Part shown: one piece after another, positions 5,380-9,538 of the stretch
Layout of the letters: every line of letters starts with the position of its first letter
Numbering within the stretch: position 1 is the first letter of the stretch
Source: a virus
Virus record (IMG/VR): IMGVR_UViG_3300009158_000009
Location: 1-37,342 of that record
Direction: 5' to 3' (one strand)
DNA: 37,342 nucleotides
Notes under the pieces: model-generated
Told to the model about the DNA's origin: nothing
The model's database searches: none
Seen by the model: only the letters and a program-made list of their open reading frames with translations
Program-made: the position numbers and the translations under genes

Positions 5380-5782
5380 ATTCTGCGCTGCAAAGCCTGC
5401 TACTGAGACGGCGCTCCGGGAAACCGAGGCGCGTCTCGTGCGGCTCATCCGTGAACTGAACGCTCGCTTCGACTCAATCGAGGTGCGCATCAATGCGCTG
5501 CATCTGCATTCGACCTGCCATCCTGAATGGGTGGCTCCGGGTGCTGGTGCTGGGGCGAAAGCACGAAGAGCGGGAATCGTGGAAGCGGTCCTGCTCATGT
5601 CCGGGGCGGCAGGAATGACCGTTCCAGAGCTTGCAGGATACCTGCATATCCCCGTGTCCAGGCGTGAAACCCTGGGCGAAGACCTCTCATATCTGGTCGC
5701 CGAAGAGCGTATCCAGATTGTTCCCTCACGCAACAAACGCTGGAGAATCAGAAGCCATGGCACGAGCAAAAGCAACCGTTGA
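5366..5782 (+). CDS. Coiled-coil / winged-helix protein, possible regulator
   Basis: This 138-residue protein starts at ATG 5366 inside the end of the previous gene; an upstream GTG at 5330 is less likely. Residues about 12-45 are coiled coil (RETEARLVRLIRELNARFDSIE). Residues about 70-125 look like a winged helix: GMTVPELAGYLHIPVSRRETL followed by DLSYLVAEERIQIV. This suggests DNA binding, perhaps control of the downstream recombination genes, but it is inference. It overlaps the annealing-protein gene by 26 bases. Confidence 0.6.
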   Translation: MDTDRFCAAKPATETALRETEARLVRLIRELNARFDSIEVRINALHLHSTCHPEWVAPGAGAGAKARRAGIVEAVLLMSGAAGMTVPELAGYLHIPVSRRETLGEDLSYLVAEERIQIVPSRNKRWRIRSHGTSKSNR

Positions 5783-6485
5783 AACCGTCGAACCCATCAC
5801 CGTCGAACCCTCAGAAACTGGGGGCGGGAACCATCTCGACCTGTGGGATTCGGTCCAAGCGACCGACCCTAAGTACACCAAGAAGTTTAGCAGGGGTGGC
5901 GGGTTCTCAGGAACCGCCATCAATGCGACCTACCTCGCGAAGAAGGCAACCGAGAAGTTCGGGCCCCTCGGAATAGGCTGGGGCGTCATCGTCGAAGACG
6001 AAACCTGGGCGGAAGGTGCGCCCATCATCGACGATAAGTGGGGGAAAGTCGGGACCGAATTGATCCACGTCCTCCGAATCGTGCTCTGGTACGATTGGCA
6101 GGGCACCCGTGGCGAGGTGCGCCACTACGGCCAGACGACCTTCGTCGGCAAGAATAAGCACGGCGTGTTCACCGACGAGGAGGCTCCGAAGAAGAGCCTA
6201 ACGGACGCCATGTCCAAGGCTCTCTCGCTCCTCGGGTTCGCCAGCGACGTTCACCTAGGACTGTACGACGACAACAAATACGTGAGCGACCTCAAGCAAG
6301 CTGCGCTTGACGCAGAGAAACCCAAGGGGCCAACCCTTGAAAGCATCCTTGCCGCTGTAGGTGCGGCTGGAAACCTGGAGGCTCTGAAGTCTGCCGTCGT
6401 GGCGGCTTCAGTTCTCAGCGACGCAGACAAGGCCACCCTCAAGGTGGCATACCTCGCGCGCAAAGCCGCCATCGAGGTAGCGTGA
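5757..6485 (+). CDS. Rad52-like single-strand annealing protein (phage recombinase)
   Basis: This 242-residue protein starts at ATG 5757 with GGAG twelve bases upstream. Residues 45-176 carry the hallmarks of the Sak/Rad52-like annealase group: an INATYLAKKATEKFGPLGIGW start, a HYGQTTFVGKN strand and FTDEEAPKKSLTDAMSKAL followed by LGFASDVHLGLYDDNKYV. Such proteins coat and anneal resected single strands during phage recombination. The C-terminal 60 residues are a helical, Ala-rich domain that probably contacts partner proteins. The gene for an Fe-S exonuclease follows after one tiny gene, giving an annealase-exonuclease pair. Confidence 0.8.
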   Translation: MARAKATVETVEPITVEPSETGGGNHLDLWDSVQATDPKYTKKFSRGGGFSGTAINATYLAKKATEKFGPLGIGWGVIVEDETWAEGAPIIDDKWGKVGTELIHVLRIVLWYDWQGTRGEVRHYGQTTFVGKNKHGVFTDEEAPKKSLTDAMSKALSLLGFASDVHLGLYDDNKYVSDLKQAALDAEKPKGPTLESILAAVGAAGNLEALKSAVVAASVLSDADKATLKVAYLARKAAIEVA

Positions 6486-7865: not shown

Positions 7866-8027
7866 ATGCGGAGCGGGCACCTTGCCATACAAGCAAACTT
7901 GTGGCAAAAAGAATTTGGCCCCGAACTCCAGCAAGAGTCCGAGGCCCGAGAACAACCAGATGGCAAAGACAAGATACCCCAACAGGCTTGGGTTGTCGAG
8001 ACCTTGCCACGCACCGCAAGGAAGCCA

Positions 8028-8801
8028 GTGGCCGGATGGTATAAGCAACACACGAGCGAGCTTGCTTCGCTCGAAGCGTTCGCCAAGTGCGGGCGCATCG
8101 ACCTCGTCACGTCCTGGCTGCGAGTCACGCGCTGGACTGTTGACCACGAAAGCGACGAGCTTCCCGACTCGTTGCGTCACGAAGCGGAGACTCTCGAAGA
8201 GGCTGGCCTAGTCGTCACCTTCGCGAGCCGATGTAAGAAGCTCCTCGACCAGCGAACTTCGATGGCCGAGAAGCGTGAAGCTAAGAGAGCTTTGGTGAAC
8301 TCATGTGAACTCACATCGATTCACATCGATTCACGTGAACTCACTTCGTATCACGTGAACTCATGTGATCATCAAGACAAGACAAGACAAGACAAGAGAG
8401 AAGAAGAGGGAGAGGGAGAGCACGAGAGGGATGTTGCTCCGCAACCCGCGAGCCCCGCTCGCTCCAAGAAGCCTTCGAAGGGCAAGCTGGCTCTAGACGC
8501 TTGGTGCGAAGCGGTCAAGGCCGAGACCGGAACCCGGTCAGCCGAGCAAGGCAAGACGCTCGAAGCCATCGCATCGAAGCTCCAAGACATCGCTGCCGAG
8601 TCCGGCGACACGTTCATCGACATCGTCCGCCGTCGCGTGACCCTGAACAAGAGCCTCCAGATTCGGTGGGCCGCTCAAGACTACGCGACCGACAAGACCC
8701 AGAAGCCTTGGAAGAAGGCAAACCCCCTAGACTGCGGCAACTCAGACAAGTGGGATAAGTTCGAGAAAGACTGGAAGAACCCTTACGGAGAGACCATGTG
8801 A
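8028..8801 (+). CDS. Replication initiator-like protein (lambda O-type position) with internal repeats
   Basis: The preferred start is GTG 8028, with AAGGAA four bases upstream, giving 257 residues; an ATG at 7866 (311 residues) has no ribosome site and a less coding-like composition. Residues about 15-60 look like a winged helix (GRIDLVTSWLRVTRWTVDHES, then EAETLEEAGLV). The middle is encoded by 10-bp and 5-bp DNA repeats plus a purine tract. The C-terminal part after residue about 145 is a separate helical domain that could contact the loader. The next gene is a DnaC-like ATPase, so the pair matches lambda O and P in layout. Assignment as initiator is inference from order and repeats. Confidence 0.6.
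   Translation: MAGWYKQHTSELASLEAFAKCGRIDLVTSWLRVTRWTVDHESDELPDSLRHEAETLEEAGLVVTFASRCKKLLDQRTSMAEKREAKRALVNSCELTSIHIDSRELTSYHVNSCDHQDKTRQDKREEEGEGEHERDVAPQPASPARSKKPSKGKLALDAWCEAVKAETGTRSAEQGKTLEAIASKLQDIAAESGDTFIDIVRRRVTLNKSLQIRWAAQDYATDKTQKPWKKANPLDCGNSDKWDKFEKDWKNPYGETM
8295..8420 (+). other. Candidate replication origin: 10-bp iterons, AAGAC repeats and purine tract inside the initiator gene
   Basis: From 8301 to 8370 there are seven 10-bp units of the form TCAYNTSNAN (TCATGTGAAC, TCACATCGAT twice, TCACGTGAAC twice, TCACTTCGTA, TCATGTGATC), with a partial unit before them. They are followed by about five AAGAC units (8374-8398) and a 27-base unbroken purine run (8394-8420). A 10-base period is one helical turn and is out of phase with codons, which points to selection on DNA. 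Lambda has its origin iterons inside gene O, so this is a plausible origin. Confidence 0.6.
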
Positions 8802-9538
8802 TGGAAGACATCGACAAAATCCTGGGCCGCCTAATGGTCCAGCCGACCAACATGCCCGACCACGCTAGGCGCTGGGACCAAGAACGCCTCGCCCCGTACT
8901 CCGCCGCCATCGCACGATGCGTTGCCATGCCCGAGTCCTTCGAAGCTATCGCCAAGGCTCACCCCTGGTTTCCCGTCGCGTCGATGCCCGTCATCGCCAA
9001 GGTGCTCCGCGACAACGAAGCCGACTTCCAGGAAACCATCTCGAAGCTAGTGCCATCGCCGTTCTCTTCGCCCATCGTCGCGCTCCTTGGAAAAACTGGG
9101 GCCGGCAAAACTACCGCATCGCTCGCCATGTTCTTGCTCCACATGCGGGCTCACCGCACGACCCTGATTGCTGAGGCCAGGATGGCCCTAGAACGAGCTT
9201 GCGCTGGGGAGATGCCACCAAGGGTGGCGAAGCCTGCAAAGGTCGTCTTCGTGGCAGCCAAGGACGTTGTTGACGCTCGCCGCTTTTCCCCGCTTGGCAA
9301 GGAGCCGGACCTCCTGGAACGCGCGAAGAGCGCTTCGCTTCTCATCCTCGACGACATCGTCGGCACCCGCGACACCGACCAAGACCTTTACCAAGTCATC
9401 TGGTCCCGCGATAACTTCAAGCTGCCGACCATCGTCACCACGGCCATGAACCCAGCCGAGATGACCGCAGCCTACAGCGAGATGTTCACCCGTCGAGTCT
9501 TCGGCGGTACGTCCAAGCTCATCACGAGGAAACCATGA
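8801..9538 (+). CDS. DnaC-like AAA+ ATPase, probable helicase loader
   Basis: This 245-residue protein starts at ATG 8801, overlapping the upstream stop as TGATG, with GGAG at 8787-8790; GTG 8798 is an alternative. Walker A is GKTGAGKT (97-104) and Walker B is LLILDD (180-185). Later segments (LPTIVTTAMNP and FTRRVFGGTSKLI) fit the sensor and arginine-finger regions of DnaC/IstB-type ATPases. It would load the host replicative helicase at the phage origin. The position right after the initiator-like gene supports this. It overlaps the next gene as ATGA. Confidence 0.8.
   Translation: MEDIDKILGRLMVQPTNMPDHARRWDQERLAPYSAAIARCVAMPESFEAIAKAHPWFPVASMPVIAKVLRDNEADFQETISKLVPSPFSSPIVALLGKTGAGKTTASLAMFLLHMRAHRTTLIAEARMALERACAGEMPPRVAKPAKVVFVAAKDVVDARRFSPLGKEPDLLERAKSASLLILDDIVGTRDTDQDLYQVIWSRDNFKLPTIVTTAMNPAEMTAAYSEMFTRRVFGGTSKLITRKP

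Follow-up and report, generated by a model that had tools for sequence, protein, structure and literature searches.

Positions 8291–8420 of the virus record analysed here are very likely a theta-type replication origin, located in the linker-coding part of a putative initiator gene and working through the initiator/loader mechanism proposed below. No experiment has been performed on this phage. The record, a 37,342-bp entry from IMG/VR that was analysed as a whole (hereafter the window), carries genes that indicate a tailed phage. An origin inside an initiator gene is already known. As far as the searched papers show, what is new is this initiator family with its strictly 10-bp palindromic iterons and GA-rich flank, together with a rule that relates a helix residue to the flank of the iteron. 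Phage origins have seldom been mapped; if the findings are confirmed, the initiator gene itself could reveal the origin of many phages, and one or two residues could serve to predict origin specificity. Confirmation would also illustrate how an origin can evolve in step with its reader, since the two are no more than about 100 bp apart in one gene.

The iteron array and its gene neighbourhood

Early genes (exonuclease-like, PD-(D/E)XK and RusA-like) are on the + strand of the window, and head, packaging and internal virion genes are on the − strand. The initiator ORF is open from ATG 7866 to 8801, and ATG 7866 had been taken as the gene start. Homologues of the protein begin with MAGWYKQHTSE or MANWY, which places the start very probably at GTG 8028 (257 residues), so that the upstream ATG is probably not used. 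The following gene overlaps the 3′ end of the initiator gene, and its PHROG matches support the DnaC-like loader proposed at this place (Table 1). Cumulative GC skew along the window is highest at 6–8 kb and declines from ~8 kb, near the array; gene orientation alone could produce this peak.

Table 1. Features of the putative origin region, in window coordinates
Feature	Position	Strand	Description
Putative replication initiator gene	8028..8801	+	257 aa; GTG start inferred from homologues; no Pfam match
Candidate iteron-recognition element (codons)	8250..8288	+	Basic end of long helix, QRTSMAEKREAKR, residues 75–87; AF2 helix 65–93; position equivalent to the Phage_rep_org_N specificity helix; inference for the window protein
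Array of eight 10-bp iterons	8291..8370	+	TCACGTGANN and half-site variants; units at 8291, 8301, 8311, 8321, 8331, 8341, 8351, 8361
Five CAAGA repeats	8373..8397	+	Tandem Repeats Finder
27-nt all-purine tract	8394..8420	+	No longer purine or pyrimidine run in the window; candidate site of strand opening or loader entry
DnaC-like helicase loader gene	8798..9538	+	phrog_50, E 1e-12; phrog_3277, 3.8e-5

Each iteron unit is a palindrome or half palindrome, TCACGTGA plus 2 spacer bases. Perfect palindromic copies (TCACGTGAAC) were found at 8331 and 8351, TCATGTGA units at 8301 and 8361, and half-sites at 8291, 8311, 8321 and 8341. The first-pass annotation had described seven tandem 10-bp units of the form TCAYNTSNAN. 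The 10-bp tandem array is real, but it has eight units, starts at 8291 and consists of palindromes and half palindromes that are not just TCAYNTSNAN. Tandem Repeats Finder gave a period of 10 with 7.4 copies (8295–8368). Identity within the stretch was 0.67 at lag 10 and 0.61 at lag 20; at other lags it was mostly 0.12–0.26, but reached 0.40–0.42 at lags 5 and 15. Lag-10 identity was 0.53 or less in every other 76-bp interval of the 37-kb record, and when TCAC/GTGA half-sites were scored every 10 bp, the eight units from 8291 were the only succession of at least three.

Synonymous resampling, homologues and the purine tract

To separate DNA from peptide, synonymous codons were drawn anew 2000 times per sequence in nine family members, keeping the peptide fixed and following local codon usage. 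For the window and four relatives (L002 to L005), none of the 2000 resamplings reached either the observed lag-10 identity or the observed count of phased palindromic half-sites. In L006 and L007 the p-value was about 0.015 (up to 0.017) for lag 10 and <0.0005 for half-sites; the corresponding values were <0.0005 and 0.002 in L009, and 0.0085 and <0.0005 in L137. Since this null was rejected, the array is not explained by the peptide, in line with the earlier argument that a 10-base period cannot serve a protein repeat.

The first-pass annotation had also suggested aligning homologues to see whether the DNA period is conserved while the peptide is not. In the family members examined, successive sites were spaced by exactly 10 bp along the whole array. 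L009 and L137, which are 25–31% identical to the window protein, carry the motif CCACGTGG with variants and a different linker peptide, yet they keep the 10-bp register. Retention of the register with a changed motif and peptide is the reverse of the outcome that the annotation had named as refuting its reading, and favours, in this sequence comparison, a DNA function for the array. The family is limited to nine sequences in two iteron classes. The L009 contig was the only match to the CCACGTGG version of the array pattern, and BLAST of an array sequence against annotated phages gave marginal matches only.

The array is followed by the CAAGA repeats and by the purine tract, which has exactly the 27 bases reported for it; within the tract, Tandem Repeats Finder detected AGAGGG repeats at 8405–8420. 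The most purine-rich 60-bp interval of the record starts at 8374. GC content is 48% in 8369–8432 vs. about 59% around it, and the flank is a strand-asymmetric, purine-rich tract, GA-rich rather than AT-rich as had been noted. CAAGA repeats are kept in L002 to L007, while AGAAC repeats occur in L009 and GAGAA repeats in L137. In every family member the array is followed by a purine-rich tract, which ranks in the top 0.1–2.4% of intervals per locus and has a GC content below that of its surroundings.

It could be argued that the repeat is a functionless by-product of a low-complexity linker or of replication slippage. The linker is indeed of low complexity and is modelled with low confidence, as disordered stretches are, and the CAAGA repeats resemble slippage products. 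A by-product is, however, hard to reconcile with the rejected synonymous-codon null, with an exact register that is kept with other motifs and peptides, with a palindromic ACGT core common to several phage groups, or with the prediction of the iteron flank by a residue of the preceding helix (see below). We consider it very improbable.

Known origins and the proposed mechanism

Staphylococcus phage 80alpha offers a close parallel. For autonomous replication, its ORF20 and DnaC-like ORF21 are both required and together suffice; a mutant in ORF20 could not be complemented in trans, the ORF20 gene being needed in cis (PMC5499656). The 80alpha record marks a rep_origin inside gp20. As in the window, the initiator has an N-domain, a repeat-bearing linker and a C-domain, the origin is in the gene, and the loader gene is directly downstream. 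Because the 80alpha gene pair is sufficient and its initiator gene is needed in cis, an origin is the best reading of the window array, although it is not proven. ORF20 differs from the window initiator in its weak HTH_36-like N-domain match and its Phg_2220_C domain, its linker repeats differ in sequence and lack a 10-bp period, and it has an AT-rich trinucleotide tract.

In lambdoid phages, iterons are found in the middle of gene O; plasmid replication is abolished by silent iteron changes that disrupt the binding of O, and in Stx phages extra iterons add residues to O (PMC7466680). The first-pass annotation saw in the window a layout that copies lambda O/P with the origin inside O. This was borne out, with iterons mid-gene in the initiator and a loader gene beside it. 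The analogy is one of layout only; the protein does not match lambda-O families. The lambda iterons, which lie beside the strand-opening region, are four 19-bp imperfect inverted repeats with an AT-rich flank, whereas the window has eight 10-bp units and a GA-rich flank. Repeats inside the initiator gene are also known from the RepA_N plasmid pSK41, where Rep boxes are located centrally within rep and the encoded linker is dispensable as protein (PMC5703833). Unlike the window, pSK41 is a plasmid, and its RepA_N domain is absent from the window protein.

The window initiator had no Pfam match, and thus neither a PF09681 (Phage_rep_org_N) nor a RepA_N domain; searches of PHROG and Pfam assigned it to no lambda-O-type family and to no other known initiator family. 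Searches of annotated phages by DNA and by protein gave no direct relatives. AlphaFold2 (AF2) predicted an all-helical N-domain, a disordered linker and a weak C-part; the N-domain was modelled confidently (block means about 77–87) and the remainder poorly. The last helix of the N-domain, residues 65–93, contains QRTSMAEKREAKR, and the array is encoded right after it. The model had no match in the PDB, and no solved relative was found by sequence either. In their C-terminal halves, the window protein and L002 differ from L003 to L007, which also differ among themselves. These differences suggest that the loader-contact (C-terminal) part may have been exchanged while the N-domain and the array stayed.

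We propose that initiator dimers would bind the TCACGTGA-like palindromes via the basic helix end encoded just upstream. The palindromes recur every 10 bp and are therefore on one face of the DNA helix. The resulting nucleoprotein array would strain and open the adjoining CAAGA/purine tract, and the initiator would then pass the exposed strand to the DnaC-like loader of the neighbouring gene, which would bring the host replicative helicase. Binding, dimerisation, strand opening at the purine tract and the hand-over to the loader are all inferred. Against the origin reading stand the lack of a family or PDB match for the window initiator and the composition of the tract, which is not AT-rich.

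The array could instead be an operator by which the initiator or another phage regulator controls the initiator/loader operon at the transcriptional or translational level, without acting as an origin. Its short palindromes would fit dimeric repressors, and a few similar arrays are intergenic or elsewhere (L051, L085 and L115, and L145 just upstream of a rep gene). The window array, however, is in the middle of a gene and is followed by a conserved strand-asymmetric tract, the same layout recurs in the linkers of dissimilar initiator types, and replication of 80alpha requires the equivalent gene in cis (PMC5499656). An operator without origin function is unlikely in our assessment.

Helix residues and ACGT-core iterons in other initiators

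Viral contigs scanned for exact matches to TCACGTGANNTCACGTGA yielded at least 120 stretches. Among the matches listed, nearly all coding ones were mid-gene, in linkers of initiator-like ORFs; the genes belonged to Phage_rep_org_N (PF09681; L011, E 6.5e-52) and to PHROG replication-initiation or primosomal families. Many matches came from near-identical phages, so that the location of the arrays, and not their count, is the evidence. Phage initiators that are otherwise unlike each other carry ACGT-core palindromic iterons in their linkers. When the pattern was set to 11 bp, it matched 33 stretches, again mostly in initiator linkers; strict 10-bp spacing, universal within the window family, is therefore not universal in the wider class, where spacing is about one helical turn (10–12 bp). 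No 10-bp array was found in TP901-1 rep, which its record describes as a replication protein on experimental grounds. Judged by a Walker-A proxy, a loader comes directly after the PF09681 gene in 47 of 76 loci, an arrangement that is common but not universal. Thirty ORFs with TCACGTGA arrays had been classed by eye as not of the PF09681 type. A basic motif such as RxR(K/Q)xxxR was present upstream of the array in 18 of them, where shuffles gave an expectation of 0.6; the motif was defined with the sequences already in view, and the count therefore describes and does not test.

The Phage_rep_org_N replisome organisers of Bacillota phages resemble the window initiator in having ACGT-core palindromic linker iterons after a basic helix, followed by a purine-rich tract, and many of them use TCACGTGA, as the window does. 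They differ from it in an N-domain that is winged-helix in the AF2 model vs. all-helical as predicted for the window, and in a spacing of mostly 10–12 bp vs. strictly 10. The flanks of their ACGT-core palindromes vary, giving TCACGTGA, TAACGTTA, mixtures of TGACGTCA and TGACGTTA, or CTAACGTTAG. A protein-similarity search, which avoids motif bias, was made in a collection with one genome per species, and the 80 PF09681 proteins taken from it were dereplicated to 65 (residue numbering of L253; thresholds of the flank classes were set by us). The columns most informative on flank class were residues 120, 121, 123 and 118, all in the basic helix just before the linker, with corrected mutual information of 1.13, 0.80, 0.80 and 0.69 of 1.68 bits, respectively; no other column exceeded 0.35. 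Residue 120 alone gave 97% leave-one-out class accuracy in 62 proteins (baseline 48%), and the best winged-helix column gave 68%. In the AF2 model of a PF09681 initiator, these residues are in a separate long helix (106–129) after the winged helix; Foldseek returned CRP/NtcA-type folds as weak best matches to the model.

Pairs of proteins that are 87–94% identical over their first 95 residues have different helices and also different iterons. A tree built from the first 98 residues, poorly resolved at 98 columns, shows at least 25 changes of flank class; on its well-supported branches, the helix residue switched together with the TA-class in 7/7 independent pairs. In a second set, picked by DNA motif from viral contigs and possibly sharing species with the first, residue 120 fitted 68 of 69 ORFs (37/37 with TAACGTTA and 31/32 with TCACGTGA). 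The helix codons adjoin the iterons on the DNA, and co-inheritance could therefore inflate the association. Residues 125–132, which are nearer to the iterons, predicted worse (21–58% accuracy), which speaks against linkage alone without ruling it out. From sequence covariation, these data suggest that one short protein stretch may decide which site sequence is used.

This tracking of the iteron flank by the initiator's own helix is what one would expect of an array bound by the initiator itself, and it speaks against a partition (centromere-like), packaging or recombination site that is merely located in the initiator gene. Centromere-like sites do use arrays of short palindromes, and one array (L115) is just upstream of a gene that, by eye, resembles a terminase small subunit. 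We give such a site very little weight.

Eukaryotic bZIP proteins have a basic helix with N-x7-R, followed by a leucine zipper, and recognise 8-bp ACGT-core palindromes (G-box CACGTG, CRE TGACGTCA). PF09681 phage helices likewise combine N-x7-R with TCACGTGA, TGACGTCA or TAACGTTA sites, but no leucine zipper was identified in them and the helix is C-terminal to its domain. The window helix has Q or H where N stands. The likeness is regarded as a resemblance and no homology is claimed; if confirmed, it would be a compact test case for convergence of a phage initiator helix with the eukaryotic bZIP reading of ACGT-core sites. We find it reasonably probable, with considerable doubt remaining, that many phage initiators of otherwise unlike types read ACGT-core iterons with a bZIP-like basic helix encoded beside them and that one residue largely sets the flank (K, TC-ACGT; V/Q/A/F, TA-ACGT; N, TG-ACGT). 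Helix and iterons would then form a small swappable origin-specificity cassette, of which the window phage would be a member with strict 10-bp spacing. The extension of the helix rule to the window protein is an inference from the position of the helix in the model only. A literature search (TCACGTGA in phage origins, Phage_rep_org_N specificity, bZIP-like phage initiators) did not find the helix–iteron rule; most subscription papers were outside its scope.

Several loci showed other arrangements. In L290, L292, L315, L321, L322 and L328, the helix NAERN(R/K)(R/K)YRERKK is accompanied by a composite linker array, TGACGTTAGCGTGACGTCACGTGACG, of overlapping different ACGT palindromes. A Phage_rep_org_N gene was found on a contig labelled as a Bacteroidota MAG (L258); its sequence groups with Clostridium, and the contig is therefore probably misbinned. 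In a few phages, TCACGTGA arrays are outside initiator genes, and other or additional roles are therefore possible. L051 has two clusters between structural genes (2168–2196 and 2367–2397), L115 has an array at 1097–1124, just before the terminase-like gene, and L085 has one at 8846–8883 in a region without a clear gene; these are possibly second origins or operators. In L145, a TCACGTGA array at 5466–5484 is just upstream of a Phage_rep_org_N gene (5508–6305) whose own helix (NRERFKKFYEK) and linker are of another iteron type, and the upstream array looks like the remnant of a replaced origin module.
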